Positions 2,381-36,679 of a stretch of 64,000 nt of DNA are shown in pieces. The stretch is from Thermodesulfobium narugense DSM 14796. Lineage in GTDB: Bacteria; Thermodesulfobiota; Thermodesulfobiia; Thermodesulfobiales; Thermodesulfobiaceae. Position 1 is the stretch's first letter. Every line of letters starts with the position of its first letter. Under the pieces are notes generated by a model, which saw nothing but the letters and a program-made list of their open reading frames with translations, was not told the origin of the DNA and made no database searches. The stretch covers positions 461,501 through 525,500 of the forward strand of contig NC_015499.1 in assembly GCF_000212395.1 (NCBI RefSeq), written 5' to 3'. The translations under genes and the position numbers were made by a program.

Positions 2381-2409
2381 GCCCCGTCTCTGGTATTTAG
2401 AGGCGGGGC
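2381..2409. terminator. GC-rich hairpin between convergent units
   Basis: An 11-bp stem (GCCCCGTCTCT with AGAGGCGGGGC, one G-U pair) closes a 7-base loop. It lies 11 bases after the alcohol dehydrogenase stop and 15 bases beyond the last dsrE stop on the other strand. T-tracts are poor on both sides, so termination strength is uncertain. Its position suggests a shared bidirectional terminator. Confidence 0.75.
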
Positions 2410-2424: not shown

Positions 2425-2787
2425 TTAATAATTTAATACTGAATTAGCTTCTAATATTTCTTTGATAGCCTTTCCTGCCTTTGTTAGTTCGCAGCCATCA
2501 ACTATCATTTCTTTAGTAATTCCTCTTTCTTCACAACATGGAATGCAAAGGAATATCTTTCCTCCATTTGAAAGAAAATTCTCAACATGCTTTTTTATAG
2601 GATCGTGTCCGGGAGCTTTTATGTGTTCGTAAACACCTTTCGTTACTGTATATACGCCGCTTGCCTGCAAACAAACTATTACCTCAGCGTCCATTGCAAG
2701 GGCTGCGTTAGCCATTACGTATGCAAGAGTTGCCTTTTCTGGATCTTCAGGCCCACTTGTTGACATGACTACAACTTTTTCGTTCAT
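2425..2787 (-). CDS. DsrE-family sulfur carrier, copy 1
   Basis: A 120-residue DsrE/TusD-like protein. The family holds small oligomeric persulfide carriers that pass sulfur among TusA, rhodanese-type and Dsr/Hdr-type proteins. Candidate persulfide cysteines form CIPCC (C81, C84, C85) in the usual loop before the last helices. It is the last gene of the minus-strand hdr operon, 45 bases after copy 2 and with its own AGGAGG site. Copies 1 and 2 share two perfectly identical DNA blocks (2558-2640 and 2680-2742), while their ends diverge. A role in sulfur relay to the Hdr complex is inferred from context. Confidence 0.88.
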   Translation of the reverse strand: MNEKVVVMSTSGPEDPEKATLAYVMANAALAMDAEVIVCLQASGVYTVTKGVYEHIKAPGHDPIKKHVENFLSNGGKIFLCIPCCEERGITKEMIVDGCELTKAGKAIKEILEANSVLNY

Positions 2788-2832
2788 TTTGATCGTCCTC
2801 CTTAAAATTCTTCTTTGTTTGTGACGTAAAGA

Positions 2833-3195
2833 TTAATAATTTAATGTGGTTTTTGCTTCTAATATAGCTTTCATTGCTTTGCCAGATTTGGCCATCTCAC
2901 AGCCTTCAAGTATCTGATCTTGAGAAATGTCTCTTTCCTGGCAGCAAGGTATGCAAACGTAAAATTTTCCTCCATTTGAAAGAAAATTCTCAACATGCTT
3001 TTTTATAGGATCGTGTCCGGGAGCTTTTATGTGTTCGTAAACACCTTTTGTTACCGTGTAGACTCCATTTGATTGGAGAACCATTAATACCTCAGCGTCC
3101 ATTGCAAGGGCTGCGTTAGCCATTACGTATGCAAGAGTTGCCTTTTCTGGGTTTTCTGGTCCAGAAGATAAGGTAATTACAAGTTTTTCACTCAT
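2833..3195 (-). CDS. DsrE-family sulfur carrier, copy 2
   Basis: A 120-residue DsrE-like protein, colinear and very similar to copy 1, with the same cysteine cluster (CIPCC, C81/C84/C85). The central part is identical to copy 1 at the DNA level over 83 and 63 bases. The N-terminal 15 residues and the C-terminal third differ. Gaps to its neighbours are 34 and 45 bases, consistent with one transcript. It probably acts as a cytosolic persulfide carrier with TusA. A hetero-oligomer with copies 1 and 3, as in DsrEFH, is possible but unproven. Confidence 0.88.
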   Translation of the reverse strand: MSEKLVITLSSGPENPEKATLAYVMANAALAMDAEVLMVLQSNGVYTVTKGVYEHIKAPGHDPIKKHVENFLSNGGKFYVCIPCCQERDISQDQILEGCEMAKSGKAMKAILEAKTTLNY

Positions 3196-3229
3196 TTCTA
3201 CCTCCGATTAAATTTTTTTGAGTTGATAA

Positions 3230-3592
3230 TTAATAAAACATTACTAAGTCTGACTCTGAGATGTCTAACATTGCTCTTCCTGCTCCAACTATTTGTGCAT
3301 TACTAACAAGGTCTTTTTCAGTTATGTTTCTGGCTTTGCTTGCACAAACACACAAATAAAATTTACCGCCTTGTTCTATAAAATTTTTTACATAAATTTC
3401 TAATGGATCGTAATCTTTATATGTTATTCTTTCAAACATGCCCTTGACAGCTGTAAAAACTCCTCCGCTTTGAAGCCACATAGTTACTTCATAGTCCATT
3501 GCAAAAGCAGCGTTTGCCATAATAAAAGCACCTATGACTTTTTCTGGATTATCTGGACCTGACGTAAGGGCAATAAACGCCTTCTTTGCCAT
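3230..3592 (-). CDS. DsrE-family protein, copy 3 with altered cysteines
   Basis: The third 120-residue DsrE-like protein in tandem. The family fold is clear (SGPDNPEKV, then AAFAMDYEV, then GGKFYLC), but it is much more diverged than copies 1 and 2. It keeps C81, and the C84-C85 pair is replaced (CVCAS), leaving C81 and C83. By analogy with DsrEFH, where only some subunits carry the active cysteine, this may be the structural subunit of a hetero-oligomer. It follows the hdrB-like gene by 24 bases and has a GGAGG-type ribosome-binding site. Confidence 0.82.
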   Translation of the reverse strand: MAKKAFIALTSGPDNPEKVIGAFIMANAAFAMDYEVTMWLQSGGVFTAVKGMFERITYKDYDPLEIYVKNFIEQGGKFYLCVCASKARNITEKDLVSNAQIVGAGRAMLDISESDLVMFY

Positions 3593-3616
3593 CCTTTTCC
3601 TCCACTTTTATGGACT

Positions 3617-4579
3617 CTATAAATAAGCTTTCGCTAAAATTTCTGACAGATCCAAAAAACTATCCTTTAAAGGAGTGCTTTCTTTTAGGTTTAATAAACA
3701 AATTGGACACATTGTAGTTACTACGTTTGAACAGGTTAATAAATCGTTTGCTCTTTTTGAGGCAATTTCTTTTGCCTTTTTTGGGAAAAGCGATTCAATT
3801 GGGCCACCACAACAGTGAGTGAGCTTTCTTGAAAGTTCTGGTTCTACATAATTTATTCCTGCATTTTTTAAAAGAGCTCTTGGTTCTTCGATTACTTCTT
3901 CATATCTTGCCAGGACACAGGAATCGTGGATGGCTACAATCATGTCCAGTTTGTTTTGAGGTTTGATCTTTTTTTCATACAATACTTCGATGTAATTTTT
4001 CACCTCATAATCAAATTCTGGCAAGATTTTTTTATAAACCTTTCTAAGCATATGTGTGGTGTGAGGGTCAACTGTAATAATATTTTTTACGTTGTTTTCT
4101 TTAAGGATTTTATTTAATATCTTTGCCTGATTAATTAGGGGTTCATCTATGCCGTTGTCGTATAAAAGGGTACCGACATAGAGTTCATCTTCGTATAAAT
4201 ATCCTGCTTCTACTCCAGCATACTTTAAAAGCTTGTAGATATTTTGCAAGCATCTATTTGATCGTTCTTCTTCGCTTTTGTCAGGTTTTGCGGCAAATTT
4301 GGACATTGAAGATAGGTCAATAAACTTATTAACTATTCTTCCTACTGGAGCTAGTTTCATCAGAGTGGATTCTTCCAGGTTTTCATATAGATTGGTTGCT
4401 GACTTTGTGATTGGCATAAGTTGATACATATGCCCGGTATAAATTATTGTTTCTGTGCCCTTTTTTATGTTTAAATCCTTTGCCCATGAGACAAGGCTTT
4501 TTTCTGGAACGCTAAAGACAGTCTTTCTCTTTTCAAAGTTATCGTTTAATATCCCTAAAACAGCTCCTACTTTGCTCAT
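3617..4579 (-). CDS. hdrB: HdrB/HdrD-like CCG-domain iron-sulfur protein
   Basis: Related to the catalytic [4Fe-4S] subunit of heterodisulfide reductases (HdrB/HdrD) and to DsrK. The C-terminal half keeps a full CCG domain: an HDSC motif, then HCCGGP, then MCPICLLNL. The N-terminal half aligns with the family, but YTGHMYQL has His where Cys is common, so only one cysteine-rich cluster site looks intact. An in-frame ATG at 4609 exists, but the ATG at 4579 follows TTGGAGTG at a good distance and avoids overlap with hdrC, giving 320 residues. It probably reduces or oxidises a disulfide or persulfide with electrons from HdrC and HdrA. The substrate is unknown. Confidence 0.86.
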   Translation of the reverse strand: MSKVGAVLGILNDNFEKRKTVFSVPEKSLVSWAKDLNIKKGTETIIYTGHMYQLMPITKSATNLYENLEESTLMKLAPVGRIVNKFIDLSSMSKFAAKPDKSEEERSNRCLQNIYKLLKYAGVEAGYLYEDELYVGTLLYDNGIDEPLINQAKILNKILKENNVKNIITVDPHTTHMLRKVYKKILPEFDYEVKNYIEVLYEKKIKPQNKLDMIVAIHDSCVLARYEEVIEEPRALLKNAGINYVEPELSRKLTHCCGGPIESLFPKKAKEIASKRANDLLTCSNVVTTMCPICLLNLKESTPLKDSFLDLSEILAKAYL

Positions 4580-4583
4580 TTTT

Positions 4584-4886
4584 TCACACTCCAAGCTTGC
4601 TCTTGGCAAGATAATTTCTGATAAGTCTTATGTTTTCTGTTATGTTAACATCATGTGGGCATTGCTCTTCGCACATCCTACATAAAAGGCATGAAAATAT
4701 CTGATCGGTGCTCTCAAGAATTTTTTCCTCTTCGCCTAAGAGAACATATCTAAAAAGTTTTCTGGGTAAAATATCAAAGCCTACTGGGCACAGTGCCGAG
4801 CAAGTCCCACAGTTAAAGCATGCTGATGCGTTGAAATCCTCACTTATCTTAATTTTATCTATCAATCCAGAATTGACTTTTATCAT
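4584..4886 (-). CDS. hdrC: HdrC-like ferredoxin subunit
   Basis: A 100-residue protein with two classical [4Fe-4S] binding sets, C23-C26-C29-C33 and C66-C69-C72-C76, arranged as in HdrC, the electron wire between HdrA and HdrB. It sits four bases before the hdrB-like gene and one base after the small HTH gene, so translation is probably coupled. No membrane segment is seen, so the complex should be cytosolic, unlike QmoC or DsrMK complexes that reach the membrane. Confidence 0.92.
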   Translation of the reverse strand: MIKVNSGLIDKIKISEDFNASACFNCGTCSALCPVGFDILPRKLFRYVLLGEEEKILESTDQIFSCLLCRMCEEQCPHDVNITENIRLIRNYLAKSKLGV

Positions 4887-4887
4887 C

Positions 4888-5130
4888 TTATTTCTCCTTG
4901 AGAGCGTATTTGTAATAATCGTCTCGCCTCTTTTTCGGAAGCTCTTCTACAAGGTTGTATCTACGCATTGCCATTAGGTGCATGGTAGCCTCATAGGTTG
5001 GTATATTTAGCTCCTTTGAAATTTCTGGTATTGTTTTTGGTTCACTTTTGAGCAAAGAGATTATCTTTTCGTGGAAATACATTTCGCTTTTTATAACGTG
5101 TAAAGGTGGCTTAATAAATTTTTTTAGCAT
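4888..5130 (-). CDS. Small winged-helix-like protein within the hdr operon
   Basis: An 80-residue protein whose central part (IPEISKELNIPTYEATMHLM) reads like a helix-turn-helix, followed by a basic stretch (KKRRDDYYKY) that could be the wing. It lacks any sensing domain or cysteine. Its ATG overlaps the hdrA stop by one base and hdrC follows after one base, so it is made together with the complex. It could be a DNA-binding regulator, or a winged-helix subunit that packs against the enzyme. I cannot decide between these from sequence. Confidence 0.65.
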   Translation of the reverse strand: MLKKFIKPPLHVIKSEMYFHEKIISLLKSEPKTIPEISKELNIPTYEATMHLMAMRRYNLVEELPKKRRDDYYKYALKEK

Positions 5131-6851
5131 TATTTTGCCTCCAAAAGCATAGAATTTATCATGGAATTTATTTGAGCGTGAGTGTAGCCAAGAACTTCCA
5201 GAGCATCTTCAGGACAATCAGGAACACAGCCGCCACATCCTTTACAAATTGCAGGATTTATGCTTGCAATTACTTTATCGTTTCTGTTTACAAAAGATAT
5301 TGCTTCGTATGGGCATGAATTTTCGCATAGTTTGCAACCCGTACACTTTTCTTCTATTACGTGTGCAACAGTGGGCTCAATGTCTACATAGCCTTTAATA
5401 AGAAGTGATGCCGTTTTCGATGCAGCAGCCATTGAACTAGCTACGCTTTCTGAAATATTTTTTGGGCCTTGTGATGCTCCTGCAATAAATATGCCATCTA
5501 TTACAGTTTCTACAGGTCTTAGTTTTGGATGTATTTCGTTATAAAATTTGTCTTTACCAATTGGAGTTTTTAAAATATCGTTTAGTTCTGAGTTCTCATT
5601 TGCCACCATACCATTTACAAGCACAAGCAAGTCGCAGGGAATTAAGATATCTTCCTTGGCTAACAGTCTATCCTTTACAATAATTTTTATTCTTTCGCCT
5701 TTTAGACTAATATCTGGGGGGGTTTCTTCGTCATACTTGAAGTATAAAGCTCCGCGCCTGAGATTTTCTTCATAATATTCTTCATATTTTCCGTATGTTC
5801 TTATATCTCTGTAGATGTGATATTGCTTCAAATTCTTATCGATGTCAAATGCTAAAAGAGAAGCGTAGTTAACAGCGCTGCAGCAATATCTGGAACAGTA
5901 TTTGTTGCCGTTTTCTTTGTTATTTTCTCGTGAGCCAACACAGTAAATATAGGCTATCTCTCTAATTTTTTGACCATTAAAGACCAGTTCGCCCTTTTTA
6001 ACGTTATTGGCTAACAACTTCTTAAAATCTACCAAAGTTATTACATTTGGATGTCCATAACCAAATTCATTTGGTTTAGGAGTATAGGGTTTAAATCCTG
6101 TTGTTAAAATTATTGAACCGACGTTTAGAGTTAATTTTTCGTCTCCAGACATTATGTCACATTCAAAATTTCCCACGCTGCCTTGTTTTTTTATTAGTTT
6201 TGCATTGGTATAAATGTTGATGTTATTTCTTTTTTTGATCTCTTTTTCAAGTTCCTCTATTAGTTCAGAACCATTTTTGTTGTCAGGAAAGACAACGCCT
6301 ATGTCCTTTAGGTTACCACCTATTTTGGATTCTTTCTCTATTACGTGGGCAAAGATTCCCATATCGGATAATGCTAAAGCGCACCTTAAGCCTGATATGC
6401 CTCCTCCTACTATTAAAGCCTGATTAACAGTGTTTACCCTTAATGGAGTGAGTGGGACGGAATTTCTAGTTTTTGCAATACCTGCTCTTACTAAGTCAAT
6501 TGCCTTTGCAGTTGCTGCTTCTTTGTTGTGAGTGTGTGCCCATGAACACTGCTCTCTAATATTTACCTGAGTATATTGGTAAGGGTTAAGTCCTGCCCTC
6601 TGTGCCATATTTTGAAAGGTCTTCAAATGAAGTTTTGGAGAGCAAGAAGCTATTACAATTCCGTCTAGATTCTTTTCTTTTATTGCGTTTATCATTTCTG
6701 TCTGAGCGCTGTCAGAACACGTAAACATATTGGTCTTTGCATATGCTACGCCTTCATCATTTGCTACTGCATCTTTTACCTTCTCTACGTCCACATAGTC
6801 TGATATGTTTCCACCACAATAACATACAAAAACGCCAATTCTACCGCTCAT
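5130..6851 (-). CDS. hdrA: HdrA-like FAD/iron-sulfur flavoprotein
   Basis: A 573-residue HdrA, the flavoprotein core of heterodisulfide-reductase-like complexes. In order: an N-terminal domain beginning GVFVCYCGG with the conserved CSPKLH, an FAD-binding GGGISGLRCALAL near residue 150, the cysteine-containing CVGSRENN and YCSRYCCSAVNYA region, and a C-terminal two-cluster ferredoxin (CTGCKLCENSCP and CKGCGGCVPDCP) at about 505-555. The family can split electrons at the FAD (flavin-based bifurcation). Whether this one does is not visible. It overlaps the hdrA/gltD fusion gene by four bases (ATGA), implying coupled translation and probably a heterodimer of two HdrA-type subunits. Confidence 0.94.
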   Translation of the reverse strand: MSGRIGVFVCYCGGNISDYVDVEKVKDAVANDEGVAYAKTNMFTCSDSAQTEMINAIKEKNLDGIVIASCSPKLHLKTFQNMAQRAGLNPYQYTQVNIREQCSWAHTHNKEAATAKAIDLVRAGIAKTRNSVPLTPLRVNTVNQALIVGGGISGLRCALALSDMGIFAHVIEKESKIGGNLKDIGVVFPDNKNGSELIEELEKEIKKRNNINIYTNAKLIKKQGSVGNFECDIMSGDEKLTLNVGSIILTTGFKPYTPKPNEFGYGHPNVITLVDFKKLLANNVKKGELVFNGQKIREIAYIYCVGSRENNKENGNKYCSRYCCSAVNYASLLAFDIDKNLKQYHIYRDIRTYGKYEEYYEENLRRGALYFKYDEETPPDISLKGERIKIIVKDRLLAKEDILIPCDLLVLVNGMVANENSELNDILKTPIGKDKFYNEIHPKLRPVETVIDGIFIAGASQGPKNISESVASSMAAASKTASLLIKGYVDIEPTVAHVIEEKCTGCKLCENSCPYEAISFVNRNDKVIASINPAICKGCGGCVPDCPEDALEVLGYTHAQINSMINSMLLEAK

Positions 6852-9433
6852 AGCCCCCTCCTCATCTTAGTAATGTATCCTGCTGCTTGAGCTGCAGCAG
6901 CTCCAGCGTGTACAACAGAATCGGGGATATCCTTTATGGAACTTGAAGTGCCAGCAACAAATATTCCTTCTATTGAAGTCTTTGCCGGTTCTGTGTTCTC
7001 TTCTACTTCTCTTACGAACATGTGATTGTCCGAATCCAGTTTCATATCTTTGAACGGCTTGAATGCAGTTGTGTTTGACAATAGTCCGACTGATAGTATT
7101 ACCATATCGTGATTGGCAACCTTTATTTGTCCGTCTTCTTCCATGTCTTCGTAAAACAGATTTAGATTGTTTTCTTCGTCTTCTTCTATTCTTGCTACCT
7201 TCCCTTTTACAAATCTTATGCCCATTTCTTTAGCCTGGTGATAAAACTCTTCATATCCTTTGCCGAATGCCCTTATATCAATGTAATATATAGTCAGATC
7301 AGCAGTAGGTAGAGCCCCCATTATAAGTTGTGCCTGTTTTAGAGAATACATACAGCAAACTCTTGAACATATGTTGTTGTCTACCTTTCTATCTCGCGAG
7401 CCCACACACAATATCATTGCAATATTTGATGGCACCTTGCCATCAGATGGCCTTATTACAGCGTTGTATGGTCTGGTAGGAGCAAGTATTCTGTCCATTT
7501 GCATTGCATCGATAACGTTTGGGAATCTGCCAAACCCAAATATTTCCTTTTTGCTAGCGTTAAACAAATTGAATCCTGTAGAAACAATTACAGTATCTAC
7601 TTCTATTTCGTATCTTGTATCTCTAATTGAAAAATCTATTGCATTAGCAGGACAAATGTTTACACATTGGTGGCATTCGCTACAACCGCCACAATCCAGG
7701 CAACCTGTGGCATATTTCTTTACTTCTTCTTCTGAGATAGTTTGTTCTATTTCCTCAAAATTGAAATCTTTTGTTCTAAGATGTGGCTCAAATTTCATGT
7801 GTTTTGGAAAGTTTGAATTGTAGCGATCTTTTATTTCGTTTGGCTTTACAGCAGGAAGTCTGTCATCAAATTTTTCTGAGCCAAAATCCAAATTGTTTAA
7901 AAATAGATCAAGATAAAAAGCCGCTTTTTTTGCACTGGAAATAGCTTTAAGTATATTTGAGTGTCCGTGCACATTGTCGCCACAACTAAATACCCAAGGG
8001 ATTTGGGTCTGATAGAATTCATTAACTTTTAATTCAGATATGTTCGGGTTAGACTCATCAAAGACTAATTGCTCAGGCCTTGGATCCATTGCATAAATAA
8101 TAATATCTGCTTTATCTATTTCATCTAATTTTGAATTAAGAACCAATTTGACTCCTTCGTTTGTTGCATCATCGATTTCTTTTTTTGTAGCGCTCATGTC
8201 AACTCTGTCCTTTTCAAAATGTATTGAAACGTTTGCTTTGTATCTTAATGCTACTCTGGCGCAGTGCATAGCAATGTTGTTTCCACCAATTACAACGACG
8301 TTTTTCGAATTTAGAGTAGAGTGAATATCTTTGTCTTGCAGGAATTTGATAGCGTCAATGACATTCTTTTGCTTTAGAGTTTCTGGATAATCCTTCTCAT
8401 TATAGCTAGTTCCAGTTGACAGCAATACTGCGTCAAATCCGCTTTCTTTTAATGTATTTAGAGAAAAGATCTTCGTGTTTAGCTTTACTTCAATGTTTTG
8501 ATATGATGTTATTTCTTCAATGTCTCTGTCTAGTAAATTCTTTGGAAGCAAGTAACCAGGGATTAATCTAAGTTTGCCCCCCAGTTTATCTGATGATTCG
8601 AAAATAGTTACTCTGTAGCCCTTTTTGGCAAGATAGTACGCAGCGCTCAATCCTGATGGGCCAGAACCAACAATTGCAACTCTCTTGTCTGATAGGTCTT
8701 TTAGTTCTATTTTCTGAGGGGTAGGGGAATTTTCAAAGTGCTTGTCTGCAATGTATCGTTTTATGTTTCTGATAGGGATAGAACCTTCCAATTGGTTTCT
8801 GGTGCATCTTTTTTCGCAGGGGGCAGAACATATTCTGCTAAGAGTTGAGACGAAAGGAGAATCTTCAAGATGTAAGCGATATGCTTCTTCAAATTTTCCA
8901 GATCTTGAAAGCGAAACAAGCCCGTGTGCCTTTACGCCAACGGGGCATACAAAAGTACAAGGTGAGGTGCCAAACCTCTCTATTACTGCTTTTTTTGGAA
9001 CTGCTTGTGGAAATGCAATGTATGCTGCTCTTCTGGGAATAAGATCGCAATTGAACTGGTCAAGCAAAGGGACAGTGCAAGCAAGCTCGCACTGTCCGCA
9101 TCCTGTACACTTGGCTGGGTCAACAAATGTGGCCTTTTTAAGAATTTTAGCTATAAAAGAATTCTTTTCCTTCTTTATCTCTTCAACTTCGCTGTAATTT
9201 AATATTGTGATATTATTGTGAGCAGCTGTAGCAGCCATTTTAGGTGTGGATATGCAACTAGAACAATCAAGAGTGGGAAATACTTTGCTAAGTAGTATCA
9301 TTTTTCCGCCAATACTGGATTCTTTTTCTACAAGAAGCACTTTGAATCCCATATCACCAAGCAATATAGAAGATTCCATTCCAGCAATTCCGCCACCTAT
9401 TACTAATGCGTCAAACTTTTTATAGTCGCTCAT
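6848..9433 (-). CDS. HdrA-type flavoprotein with inserted GltD-like NAD(P)H module
   Basis: An 861-residue composite. Residues 1-120 are the HdrA FAD start (GGGIAGMESS, DCSSCISTPKM) and a [4Fe-4S] site at C109/C112/C115/C119. Residues about 155-530 match the glutamate synthase small subunit/NfnB type: cysteines 159, 163, 202, 206 and 210, then FAD-binding VGSGPSGLSAAYYLAKKGY and NAD(P)-binding VVVIGGNNIAMHCAR. A cysteine-rich stretch at 578-594 leads back into the HdrA body, with CVGSRDRK, CSRVCCMYS and a final GIFVAGTSSSIKDIP FAD motif. Such an insertion would let NAD(P)H exchange electrons with the Hdr core. It lies between mvhD and hdrA in one operon. The fold calls are firm; the electron path is inferred. 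Confidence 0.93.
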   Translation of the reverse strand: MSDYKKFDALVIGGGIAGMESSILLGDMGFKVLLVEKESSIGGKMILLSKVFPTLDCSSCISTPKMAATAAHNNITILNYSEVEEIKKEKNSFIAKILKKATFVDPAKCTGCGQCELACTVPLLDQFNCDLIPRRAAYIAFPQAVPKKAVIERFGTSPCTFVCPVGVKAHGLVSLSRSGKFEEAYRLHLEDSPFVSTLSRICSAPCEKRCTRNQLEGSIPIRNIKRYIADKHFENSPTPQKIELKDLSDKRVAIVGSGPSGLSAAYYLAKKGYRVTIFESSDKLGGKLRLIPGYLLPKNLLDRDIEEITSYQNIEVKLNTKIFSLNTLKESGFDAVLLSTGTSYNEKDYPETLKQKNVIDAIKFLQDKDIHSTLNSKNVVVIGGNNIAMHCARVALRYKANVSIHFEKDRVDMSATKKEIDDATNEGVKLVLNSKLDEIDKADIIIYAMDPRPEQLVFDESNPNISELKVNEFYQTQIPWVFSCGDNVHGHSNILKAISSAKKAAFYLDLFLNNLDFGSEKFDDRLPAVKPNEIKDRYNSNFPKHMKFEPHLRTKDFNFEEIEQTISEEEVKKYATGCLDCGGCSECHQCVNICPANAIDFSIRDTRYEIEVDTVIVSTGFNLFNASKKEIFGFGRFPNVIDAMQMDRILAPTRPYNAVIRPSDGKVPSNIAMILCVGSRDRKVDNNICSRVCCMYSLKQAQLIMGALPTADLTIYYIDIRAFGKGYEEFYHQAKEMGIRFVKGKVARIEEDEENNLNLFYEDMEEDGQIKVANHDMVILSVGLLSNTTAFKPFKDMKLDSDNHMFVREVEENTEPAKTSIEGIFVAGTSSSIKDIPDSVVHAGAAAAQAAGYITKMRRGL

Positions 9434-9450
9434 CGCCTGCTCCTTATAGT

Positions 9451-9846
9451 TTAGTTATTCAATTCGCTTAATGCTTTATGAAACTTTTTGATATGTGAGA
9501 CAAATGATTCAGCACATACGGAACATATTGCAGCCATTTTTACTCTTCTTGGATCTAGGTTGTTTGCTGTGAGGAGTTCTTGTGATTTCTCTACGACCTT
9601 TGCAGTTCTATCTGTGCAGTTAGTTAAATAAGGACAATCTGTTCCATCAGCAGCTATGAATACTCCATCAAAACCACTTTTTATTGCATTTAAAATCCAT
9701 TTTGGGCTTATGCCACTAGAACAAGGAACTGTTATAACTTTAACTGATTCTGGATAGTCCATATGAGACGCTCCCGCAAGGTCAATGCCAGGATCTGAGA
9801 TATTGTTCGTTGAAAAAACTAAGATTTTTGGATTATTAGCAGACAC
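9451..9846 (-). CDS. mvhD: MvhD-like [2Fe-2S] electron-transfer subunit
   Basis: A 131-residue protein of the MvhD/FrhD-delta family, which connects a hydrogenase or dehydrogenase to HdrA through a [2Fe-2S] cluster. Visible features are VPCSSGISPKWILNAI with C42, GTDCPYLTNC with C71 and C77, and ICSVC with C108 and C111. The usual GCHxGDCHY motif is changed to DGTDCPY. No hydrogenase large or small subunit is encoded nearby, so its partner here is more likely the NAD(P)H-linked HdrA/GltD protein. It lies 17 bases before that gene and one base after tusA. Confidence 0.87.
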   Translation of the reverse strand: MSANNPKILVFSTNNISDPGIDLAGASHMDYPESVKVITVPCSSGISPKWILNAIKSGFDGVFIAADGTDCPYLTNCTDRTAKVVEKSQELLTANNLDPRRVKMAAICSVCAESFVSHIKKFHKALSELNN

Positions 9847-9847
9847 T

Positions 9848-10099
9848 TTATTTTCCTCTTTTTACATAAAGTTTCCAATACCCAGCTTCTTCAATATTTC
9901 CCAAAAATTCGTGTCCAACCTTTTCTGCCCACAGCGGGAGGTCTTCGTTTGTCCCTTCATCAGAGGATAGAACTTCCATTATTCCCCCAATAGGTATTGA
10001 GACGATTTCCCTTTTGGCTGCAAGTAGTGGACCAGGGCAGGCACTTCCTCTTGCATCTACTGTTTTGTCTACTTTCAAATTTTTCAGGTCTAAACTCAT
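9848..10099 (-). CDS. tusA: TusA-type sulfur carrier protein
   Basis: An 83-residue TusA/SirA-family protein with the diagnostic VDARGSACPGPLL motif. C21 in the CPGP box is the expected persulfide cysteine. TusA proteins move sulfur from cysteine desulfurases or rhodaneses to DsrE-type acceptors. The three dsrE genes in the same operon make that relay very likely here. It is the second gene of the operon, 19 bases after arsR and one base before mvhD. An upstream AGGAGG supports the ATG at 10099. Confidence 0.93.
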   Translation of the reverse strand: MSLDLKNLKVDKTVDARGSACPGPLLAAKREIVSIPIGGIMEVLSSDEGTNEDLPLWAEKVGHEFLGNIEEAGYWKLYVKRGK

Positions 10100-10118
10100 G
10101 ATACATCCTCCTAAATAT

Positions 10119-10472
10119 TTAATTTTTTATTTTAAAGCAAAGCAGATTGCTTTCTAAACTCATTTCCTTTGCAAAATTGCCCTTCTTTTTCATTGTTTCA
10201 TAGAGGATTTGTCTAATAAGATTGCAGGCTTCACCTAATCTTTTGTCTGAGAGCGAGTAGTAAATTGTTTTGCCCTCTTTTCTGGTTTCTACTAAATTGT
10301 GTGCTCTAAGAAGAGCTAGGTGCTGGCTAACTGTTGATGGCCTAGCGTCAATTGTCTTTGCAATTTCTGTTACGTTTGCCTCTCCTTCAGCAAGCATTGC
10401 TATTATCATAAGCCTTTTTGGGTTGGAAAGGCTTTTGCAAAGCTCTGCATGGGCTTCAAAGAGCTGCAGCAA
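10119..10472 (-). CDS. ArsR/SmtB-family transcriptional repressor
   Basis: A winged-helix regulator of the ArsR family, about 117 residues. The recognition helix region is TIDARPSTVSQHLALLRAHN, followed by the wing (RKEGKTIYYSL). There is no ArsR metal box (CVC). Cysteines lie at the N-terminal helix (ELCKSL), in EACNLI and near the C-terminus (LLCF), so a thiol or persulfide sensor is conceivable. It is the first gene of the hdr operon, behind a promoter with a TTCGAA repeat, so it probably represses its own operon. The start is unclear: a GTG at 10487 lies inside the ribosome-binding site, TTG at 10472 is 14 bases away, and an ATT at 10478 has the best spacing. Confidence 0.88.
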   Translation of the reverse strand: MLQLFEAHAELCKSLSNPKRLMIIAMLAEGEANVTEIAKTIDARPSTVSQHLALLRAHNLVETRKEGKTIYYSLSDKRLGEACNLIRQILYETMKKKGNFAKEMSLESNLLCFKIKN

Positions 10473-10501
10473 ATTAATTATAATCACCTCTTTTTATACA
10501 T

Positions 10502-10522
10502 ATATTCGAACATTCGAAAATA
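10502..10522. promoter_or_regulatory. Probable ArsR operator (TTCGAA repeat)
   Basis: The 14-base core TTCGAACATTCGAA at 10505-10518 is two palindromic TTCGAA units separated by two bases, so it is both a direct and an imperfect inverted repeat. It begins right after the -10 box of the hdr-operon promoter and covers the expected start of transcription, a typical place for a repressor to block. Binding by the ArsR protein is inferred from position. Confidence 0.7.
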
Positions 10523-10551
10523 AGTATATATATTTTTTTCGATTTTGTCAA
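10523..10551 (-). promoter_or_regulatory. Consensus promoter of the arsR-tusA-hdr-dsrE operon
   Basis: On the minus strand, TTGACA (10551-10546), a 17-base spacer and TATACT (10528-10523) form a near-perfect housekeeping promoter. Transcription should start near 10516, about 40 bases before arsR. No other promoter of this quality was seen inside the operon. Confidence 0.85.
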
Positions 10552-35390: not shown

Positions 35391-35525
35391 ATATATATAT
35401 TTCTATATGTTCGAATATAAAACTTTTATGAGTTTGTCTAGAGTTTGTAATTTGTATTTTTCTTATAATTTGTTTAAAATATATTTTAGTTATAAAAAAA
35501 TGAGTTTTGTTTAACTGAATAAATT
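35391..35525. other. AT-rich gap before the TPP riboswitch
   Basis: This stretch separates the porB terminator from the thi leader. It must hold the thi promoter. TATAAT at 35464-35469 is the best -10 candidate, but its -35 region is poor. A 21-base sequence at 35398-35418 matches the arsR operator at 17 positions. No ORF of note. Confidence 0.5.
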
Positions 35526-35640
35526 TTCCCGGGGAGCTCGAAAGGGCTGAGAAAGGCTATATGCCTGACCCGCTGAACCTGAATCGGGTAATACCGACGA
35601 AGGGAGAGAAATTAATAACTCCCAAGGTCGGGAGTTTTTT
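35526..35640 (+). promoter_or_regulatory. TPP riboswitch with transcription terminator
   Basis: The THI-box aptamer is complete: GGGGAGC, the conserved GGGCTGAGA (35544-35552), TGCCTGACCCGCTGAACCTG, and ATCGGGTAATACCGACGAAGG. P1 pairs TTCCC (35526-35530) with the GGGAG region at 35602-35606. Downstream, ACTCCC/GGGAGT (35618-35635) with a T-run is an intrinsic terminator. The CTCCC of the terminator can also pair with the GGGAG of P1, giving an antiterminator. TPP binding should therefore stop transcription of thiE-thiC-thiL. Confidence 0.97.
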
Positions 35641-35671: not shown

Positions 35672-36679
35672 ATGTTTTTTAAAACTGAGATTGATAGGGT
35701 TATAGATGCTAATCGCAATAGGTGTATTGAAGGTTTAAGGGTTGTTGAAGATTATTTAAGATTTATAAGAAATGACTCAATTAATGCTTCTGCAATTAGA
35801 GATATCAGACACGAAATATCAAAAATTTTGGATTTTGACATAGTTGGTGCAAGAGATGTAAATTCTGATATAGGAAAAAATAATTTACATAACTCCTATA
35901 CTCGAATAGATCAAGTTTTAAGAGCCAATTTATCAAGGACTAAGGAAAGCCTGAGGGTTTTAGAAGAGTTTACAAGATATATTGATACTTCAATTAGCGA
36001 TCGCATAATGAATATAAGATTTAGGTTTTATGAAGTAGAAAAGAGGCTATTATCTAATAAAGATCTTGAAAAAATCTATATATTAGCAGATGTAGGTCTA
36101 GTAGAAAGTGAATCGGACCTTTTTGACGGTTTAAAAATTCTCTTAGATAATAATGTGAGAATAGTTCAACTAAGAGCAAAAAAATTTTCTACCAAAAAGC
36201 TCTACGAACTAGGACTTAAGATAATTGAGTTTTTTCCGCATCTAAAGCTGATAATTAACGATAAAGTTGAAGTAGCACTTGCATTAAAGTCTTACGGCGT
36301 TCATGTTGGAGAGGACGAATTGCCATTTGATGTTGTGAGAGATTTAATGAGAAATAATGTAGTGGGAGCTACAGTTCATAACGTTGAAGATCTTAGACTA
36401 TCTCAGATAGCTGGAGTAGACTATATTGGTGTTGGCGCTATATATCCTTCTACTACTAAACCAGATTGTCAATTAAACGGTATAGAATTCTTAAAAAAAA
36501 TAAGAGCTTTAACTACGACTTTCATATATGCTATTGGCGGTATAAACTCAAAAAATGCTAAAGAAGTTTTTAATGCTGGTGCTGATGGAATTTGTGTGGG
36601 AAGCGGTTTTTGGCATGCTAAGGATAGAATTGAAGAGATAAAAAGATTAATTCACATTTCGAGTGAGGAGGAAAATTAG
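35672..36679 (+). CDS. thiE: Thiamine-phosphate synthase with N-terminal ThiD2 domain
   Basis: A 335-residue fusion. Residues 1-125 form the helical ThiD2 domain (VIDANRNRCIEGLRVVEDYL and RHEISKIL, with a second RTKESLRVLEEFTRYI), a proposed HMP-phosphate kinase. Residues 130-335 are ThiE, joining HMP-PP and thiazole phosphate: IVQLRAKK, LIINDKVEVAL, GVHVGEDELP, GATVHN, GVGAIYPSTTKP and YAIGGI. The fusion could cover both the kinase and the coupling step, as in cyanobacteria and Aquifex. First gene under the TPP riboswitch, with AGAGAGG upstream of the ATG. Confidence 0.94.
   Translation: MFFKTEIDRVIDANRNRCIEGLRVVEDYLRFIRNDSINASAIRDIRHEISKILDFDIVGARDVNSDIGKNNLHNSYTRIDQVLRANLSRTKESLRVLEEFTRYIDTSISDRIMNIRFRFYEVEKRLLSNKDLEKIYILADVGLVESESDLFDGLKILLDNNVRIVQLRAKKFSTKKLYELGLKIIEFFPHLKLIINDKVEVALALKSYGVHVGEDELPFDVVRDLMRNNVVGATVHNVEDLRLSQIAGVDYIGVGAIYPSTTKPDCQLNGIEFLKKIRALTTTFIYAIGGINSKNAKEVFNAGADGICVGSGFWHAKDRIEEIKRLIHISSEEEN

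Follow-up and report, generated by a model that had tools for sequence, protein, structure and literature searches.

What chemistry would bring sulfur-carrier proteins and heterodisulfide reductase (Hdr) subunits together in a single operon? The question is raised by a locus of the thermophilic sulfate reducer Thermodesulfobium narugense DSM 14796, located in a stretch of 64,000 nucleotides (nt) of contig NC_015499.1 (hereafter the window). Here, eleven minus-strand genes occupy positions 2425-10487: arsR, tusA, an mvhD-like gene, hdrAG (an hdrA with a GltD-type insertion), a second hdrA (hdrA2), a small winged helix-turn-helix (wHTH) gene, hdrC, hdrB and three copies of dsrE. Our analysis favors, at slightly better than even confidence, the reading that this operon encodes a cytoplasmic, soluble Hdr-type complex that would exchange electrons with the sulfane sulfur of TusA/DsrE-bound persulfides, probably in the reductive direction in this organism.

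We began from an original prediction that these are overlapping or closely spaced genes of one operon, and that each belongs to a particular protein family. The spacing bears this out, with successive gaps from arsR to dsrE3 of +19, +1, +17, -4, -1, +1, +4, +24, +34 and +45 nt, one promoter and a closing hairpin. All eleven genes also matched the families originally assigned to them (ArsR HTH_5, TusA, FlpD/MvhD, Pyr_redox_2 with Fer4_20 and HdrA, HdrA, a weak wHTH match, an HdrC-type dicluster Fer4, CCG and DsrE). Since promoter-like sites across the region are only as numerous as expected by chance, the case for the promoter draws on its position and its conservation. Together, one strong promoter, a putative ArsR-type operator and the terminator-like hairpin support a single transcription unit. 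Its coordinates are collected in Table 1, where the start of arsR is probably TTG 10472 rather than the GTG at 10487 that opens the reading frame, because the latter overlaps the apparent ribosome-binding site; that of hdrB is most likely ATG 4579, giving 320 amino acids (aa), and not TTG 4609.

Table 1. Features of the operon and its flanking signals, with positions counted along the window
Feature	Position	Strand	Basis
Sigma-70-type promoter, TTGACA-17-TATACT	10523..10551	-	Consensus scan, 11/12 matches, best of its strand; seen in congeners
Palindrome TATACATATATTCGAA-CA-TTCGAAAATAAGTATA	10495..10528	.	Repeat search: 16-bp arms, 88% complementary, 2-nt spacer; overlaps -10 region
arsR, ArsR/SmtB repressor	10119..10472	-	PF01022, 48 bits; HTH_metalloreg NF033788, 91 bits, above cut-off
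tusA, CPGP sulfur-carrier motif	9848..10099	-	PF01206, 73 bits
MvhD/FlpD-like subunit, TusA-linked subtype	9451..9846	-	PF02662, 104 bits; alignment with 5odc_D
hdrAG: HdrA with GltD/NfnL-type insertion, without the HdrA N-terminal domain	6848..9433	-	HdrA in three stretches plus GltD-type matches
Degenerate NAD(P)H-binding half of the GltD module, residues 378-447	8093..8302	-	Alignments with 66 homologues and with NfnA, NfnABC and StnABC
hdrA2: N-terminal domain, flavin adenine dinucleotide (FAD) domain, C-terminal two-cluster ferredoxin domain	5130..6851	-	phmmer to HdrA structures
Small winged-helix-like protein, 80 aa, between hdrA2 and hdrC	4888..5130	-	Weak TrmB/HTH_5 matches below cut-off; 50-sequence alignment
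hdrC, two [4Fe-4S] ligand sets	4584..4886	-	Fer4_17, 45 bits; TIGR03290, 60 bits, below cut-off
hdrB, two-CCG-domain fold	3617..4579	-	PF02754
dsrE1	3230..3592	-	PF02635, 56 bits
dsrE2, CxxCC motif	2833..3195	-	PF02635, 67 bits
dsrE3, tandem duplicate of dsrE2	2425..2787	-	PF02635, 69 bits
Terminator-like hairpin 3' of dsrE3	2381..2409	-	RNA fold, -20.1 kcal/mol; z -3.68 versus shuffles

To establish how widely this gene set is retained, we scanned 84,980 species genomes with an alignment of MvhD proteins as the only query, ignoring neighboring genes during selection, so that the subsequent neighbor counts constitute a fair test. This recovered at least 449 relatives of the MvhD type. Neighbors were counted for the best 80 of these, and only where the contig left room; by their record labels, these 80 span 17 named bacterial phyla and Thermoplasmatota. 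Under strict best-hit assignment, hdrAG was present in 65 of 65 loci, hdrA2 in 58/60, hdrC or an hdrC-hdrB fusion in 50/52, wHTH in 46/59, dsrE in 42/45 and arsR in 17/45. Loose counts gave tusA in 77/78, dsrE in 44/45, arsR in 29/65 and wHTH in 60/60; those for wHTH, hdrA2 and hdrC may take in cross-hits to homologues, and we prefer the strict values for these three. The median gap between tusA and mvhD is -1 nt. Within the genus, the whole operon recurs in three further genomes, where hdrB is 89-91% identical. Three genomes far outside it (G123, G200 and G301) share the order dsrE-tusA-mvhD-hdrAG-hdrA2-wHTH-hdrC-hdrB with about 50% identity in hdrAG. As the order thus recurs at roughly 50% protein identity in unrelated phyla, the association of these genes is far beyond chance. 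The co-occurrence of the families across genomes, suggested at the outset as a check, is seen among the best 80 relatives in both neighborhood and order. The count of eleven describes the local operon only: elsewhere the core comprises tusA-mvhD-hdrAG-hdrA2-wHTH-hdrC-hdrB with at least one dsrE, and the presence of arsR and the number of dsrE copies vary. In a broad sample of other bacteria, the MvhD type was found in only 2 of 382 genomes, and a search of plasmids for relatives returned one distant HdrA and nothing else.

The two HdrA-type proteins offer further evidence for a discrete module. For 49 HdrA-type sequences, we built a quick maximum-likelihood tree, with branch support from the Shimodaira-Hasegawa-like approximate likelihood-ratio test (SH-aLRT) only and many weak inner branches. 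In it, all 18 hdrAG proteins formed one group (SH-aLRT 100) and all 18 hdrA2 proteins another (99), each separate from four sHdrA proteins, the QmoA/B of the same genome, canonical HdrA and five HdrA-type proteins from HdrA-GltD loci that lack TusA. A tree of this kind had been suggested at the outset as a check against sHdr, Qmo and Mvh-Hdr, and both proteins fall into clades of their own. The two groups share a similar internal order, with Bacillota next to Actinomycetota and Dehalococcoidia next to Thermoplasmata, which fits inheritance as a unit. Gene content, gene order and both clades place the window operon in a conserved TusA-MvhD-HdrAG-HdrA2-wHTH-HdrCB-DsrE module. The nearest solved relatives of hdrAG are HdrA (9sfi, 8rvu, 5odc) and NfnA/NfnABC (9n5u, 9bov, 4ylf). 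It retains both LDCSSC and the cysteines of the inserted ferredoxin; hdrA2 has neither the inserted ferredoxin nor the DCSxC motif, reading NKNGS where hdrAG has LDCSSC. Because each protein retains cofactor sites absent from the other, we infer that they pair with each other, as a heterodimer standing in for the HdrA homodimer of other systems.

In one respect the window operon departs from what had been predicted for it, namely a link to NAD(P)H. All four genomes of the genus have the GltD-type insertion, but with a degenerate nucleotide-binding half, which is intact in most relatives. The nucleotide motif of Thermodesulfobium reads GGNNIAMH, whereas almost every relative whose insertion is full-length has GGGNxAxD, and EK replaces the RR pair of NfnA/NfnABC. 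About 37-42 residues are missing near residue 439 of the window hdrAG, and the segment after the nucleotide motif measures 56 residues in this genus versus 92-98 elsewhere. The domain is absent altogether from six Desulfobacterota-type loci (proteins of 705-750 aa), in which the second FAD motif is altered as well. The GltD iron-sulfur (Fe-S) cysteines persist in Thermodesulfobium and in these six loci, so that what is left of the module may act as a wire for electrons. All ten genomes with a degraded or lost NAD(P)H half carry DsrA, representing few loss events. In a structure model of hdrAG, a Rossmann unit of reduced size remains, residues 455-466 being poorly predicted, and Foldseek returned Nfn-type proteins and HdrA as its nearest folds. 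Use of NAD(P)H by T. narugense is, on these alignments, doubtful. In a Fermentibacteria genome (G301, locus L067, 2002-6058), a NuoG-like Fe-S protein with a GCV_H domain is encoded directly downstream of hdrB, and a NuoF-like protein further on; these are perhaps a separate NADH inlet.

The MvhD-like protein no longer has the CxxC that MvhD carries near its N-terminus; instead, it has acquired an invariant CxxC in its C-terminal part. Its invariant cysteines across seven sequences are C42, C71, C77, C108 and C111. In HdrB, only the second CCG site is complete (C221, C256, C257, C291 and C294, all five invariant in 29 sequences), and the protein is predicted to hold one noncubane [4Fe-4S] cluster. 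Its model (predicted local distance difference test score 87.6) resembles EtfD (9ojn) and HdrB (5odc/8rvu). Noncubane clusters are the sites at which HdrB, as in the 5odc complex, splits disulfides. The hdrC genes of 18 loci are long (355-426 aa) and appear to be hdrC-hdrB fusions, and Pfam confirmed the Fe-S part only in the one that we tested.

Among the sulfur carriers, TusA has CPxP in 78/78 homologous loci. A second TusA-like protein, with CPMH for CPxP, is encoded directly before a cysteine desulfurase gene (G000 C1:226279-226488, locus L001). Transfer of persulfide between cysteines of TusA and DsrE proteins has been shown for the proteins of cable bacteria (PMC13293266). In the window, dsrE2 and dsrE3 are 80% identical at the nucleotide level, yet two blocks, of 63 and 83 nt, match without a single difference; the identical blocks are also long in one congener (49 and 95 nt), a pattern that suggests gene conversion. 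One congener (G001) lacks dsrE1. Across loci L071-L149, the DsrE partner varies by lineage (a short CxPCxxxR type, a DrsE_2 type and others), and lies upstream or downstream, but hardly any locus is without one.

In the persulfide-linked mechanism that we favor, flavin electrons would reach the noncubane cluster of HdrB by way of HdrC. HdrB would then cleave or form a persulfide, a trisulfide or a mixed disulfide that TusA/DsrE offer in protein-bound form. The GltD module would be the entry point of NAD(P)H in most lineages; in Thermodesulfobium this entry has probably been lost, and electrons would move in or out via the MvhD-like subunit, the hdrA2 ferredoxin domain or both. For T. narugense, a net reductive direction (persulfide to sulfide) appears likelier than an oxidative one, because the host is a sulfate reducer and many carriers of the module without DsrA have no evident onward route from sulfite. 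The genome encodes DsrA above the curated cut-off, a sat-aprBA-qmoAB locus and a separate MvhADG-HdrABC locus, the names being given by sequence resemblance.

Of the 57 genomes with the module, 31 have DsrA above this cut-off; with the genus set aside, the comparison is 27/53 versus 28/382 background bacteria, samples unmatched for lineage or completeness, and we treat the relation as an association only. None of the 28 background genomes with DsrA has the module, which is thus not required for Dsr metabolism. Several observations weigh against the reading that we favor. The module also occurs in many genomes without DsrA (Dehalococcoidia, Aminicenantes, Thermoplasmata, Actinomycetes), and its role is accordingly not bound to sulfite or sulfate reduction. 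DsrD, a reductive marker, is present in 15 of 33 DsrA-positive carriers and absent from 18, so genomic context does not fix the direction; it occurs in all six Desulfobacterota-type genomes without the nucleotide domain and is missing from Thermodesulfobium. The YeeE/YedE importer (PF04143), by which sulfane sulfur might be supplied, was not found in the four genomes of the genus. Finally, the Rossmann half, though degenerate, retains a fold in the model, and weak nucleotide binding may persist.

The best-surviving alternative, which we nevertheless consider unlikely, is an sHdr-like oxidation without lipoate, in which sulfane sulfur from TusA/DsrE would be carried towards sulfite and electrons passed to NAD(P)+ and/or ferredoxin. 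The resemblance is real: Hdr-type A, B and C subunits share a cluster with a DsrE-family protein, often with an ArsR-type regulator, and carrier proteins, Hdr subunits and this regulator type are common to sHdr. The 18 DsrA-positive carriers without DsrD are as expected for an oxidative or chimeric Dsr, and DUF2173 genes near some relatives point the same way. However, sHdr of the Hyphomicrobium type depends on the lipoate-binding protein LbpA (PMC6067878), which is absent from the operon, as originally stated. The only GCV_H protein of the genome lies in a gcvT-gcvH-gcvP operon 0.72 Mb away. We rejected a lipoate protein supplied from elsewhere in the genome, since this single gene is the GcvH of glycine cleavage, and likewise the GCV_H domain beside hdrB in G301, which is part of the NuoG-like Fe-S protein and has no evident lipoyl lysine. 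Four sHdr loci that we fetched from Hyphomicrobiales read DsrE-HdrC1-HdrB1-HdrA (350 aa, no ferredoxin domain)-Hyp (287 aa)-HdrC2-HdrB2-Hyp-LbpA. Unlike these, the window operon has two large Fe-S HdrA types, MvhD, a GltD insertion, a wHTH protein and one HdrC; where sHdr has two HdrB proteins, it has a single one, in which one CCG site is complete. Membership in sHdr was rejected on this content and on the position of HdrA outside the sHdrA clade. The carriers, moreover, include DsrA-less anaerobes and DsrD-positive sulfate reducers, the DsrD marker being indecisive for the DsrD-less Thermodesulfobium.

Quite improbable, in our view, is a general HdrL-type module that bifurcates or confurcates electrons and has a different thiol pair as its substrate, such as the DsrC trisulfide or some small disulfide, with TusA and DsrE only regulating or supplying it. 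HdrL of Desulfobacterium autotrophicum is an HdrA-GltD fusion (heterodisulfide reductase/glutamate synthase) next to mvhD (PMC2702500), and the window likewise has a GltD-type insertion in HdrA with mvhD adjacent. That such fusions with MvhD are known from a sulfate reducer lends this possibility some support, as does the resemblance of a one-CCG-site HdrB to DsrK/TmcB-type proteins. HdrL, in contrast, was not reported with TusA, DsrE, a second HdrA, wHTH or hdrCB (PMC2702500), and the window hdrAG has no intact NAD(P)H-binding motif, judging from the replacements and deletion described above (GGNN for GGGN among them). The TusA-MvhD pairing is also near-universal and tighter than expected of accessory genes, and the three sampled HdrA-GltD proteins without TusA fall outside the hdrAG clade, in a tree that does not contain Desulfobacterium HdrL1-3.

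Other known systems show partial likeness. With MvhADG-HdrABC and FdhAB-HdrABC (5odc, 7bkb, 8rvu, 9sfi), the operon shares the HdrA FAD and Fe-S domains, MvhD, HdrC and the HdrB fold; unlike them, it has no hydrogenase (MvhA, MvhG) or formate dehydrogenase genes within 2425-10487, its HdrA is split over two unlike proteins, and HdrB has one CCG site, not two. QmoABC and QmoAB-HdrBC also place two unlike HdrA-type proteins in one operon, but no aprAB or sat lies beside the window operon, and the genome's own Qmo, found elsewhere with sat and aprBA, branches apart. A copy of Qmo or Mvh-Hdr was rejected, since the genome has both elsewhere; the predicted distinctness from sHdr and Qmo holds for both gene content and HdrA clades. 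The YTD cluster, or DsrEFH type II, is known from disproportionators and cable bacteria (PMC12998232, PMC13293266). It too joins TusA and DsrE-family genes, yet YTD has no Hdr subunits and the window operon no YeeE/YedE; it was rejected on the PF04143 result for the genus. Very unlikely, lastly, is a role in sulfur assimilation or protection, in which the complex would hold down persulfide levels in the cytoplasm or provide the sulfide needed to thiolate cofactors and tRNA. Such a role would suit small-genome anaerobes that carry the module without Dsr and a stress-induced switch by an ArsR with conserved cysteines, but a large multi-flavin, multi-cluster complex would be costly for it and the roughly sevenfold over-representation of DsrA-bearing genomes unexpected.

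Regulation may be coupled to the same chemistry. In alignment, ArsR has cysteines in its N-terminal helix (AELCK) and near its C-terminus (EACNLIR), both kept in most relatives. The palindrome of Table 1 is the probable ArsR operator, and a sequence similar to it lies upstream of arsR in three congeneric genomes. Persulfide-responsive switches are known among sHdr regulators, and by analogy the conserved cysteines suggest one here: ArsR would repress the operon until reactive sulfur modifies them. A sigma-54-type regulator is encoded near about 13 module loci. Six loci have a DUF2173 protein nearby, and nine have pyridine nucleotide-disulfide oxidoreductases resembling CoA-disulfide/persulfide reductases, some on the opposite strand. 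Elsewhere in the window, a thiamine pyrophosphate (TPP) riboswitch scoring at the gathering level (35520-35623, plus strand) precedes a gene pair at 35672 and 36680, and a membrane protein with four DUF347 repeats is encoded at 207-1001 on the minus strand.

HdrA-GltD next to mvhD was already known as HdrL; the combination with TusA, DsrE, hdrA2, wHTH and hdrCB is apparently new, no paper describing the gene set having been located in a limited literature search that did not reach key reviews. Tentatively, and at somewhat less than an even chance, we propose that the module represents a third class of sulfur-linked Hdr complex, present in bacteria and archaea, which would read and write TusA/DsrE persulfides directly and independently of lipoate, with a modular NAD(P)H inlet discarded repeatedly by sulfate reducers. 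How sulfane sulfur enters the cytoplasmic redox chemistry of anaerobes, especially in the first step of elemental-sulfur disproportionation, is called open in PMC8780430 and PMC12998232. An operon recurring in at least 449 genome stretches that joins TusA/DsrE to a flavin and Fe-S Hdr complex offers a concrete candidate with a testable reaction, and the fact that DsrA-bearing lineages have repeatedly lost its NAD(P)H part provides a natural experiment on the electron source. If the proposal is true, this third class of Hdr complex could supply the cytoplasmic step still missing from accounts of how anaerobes reduce or disproportionate sulfane sulfur.

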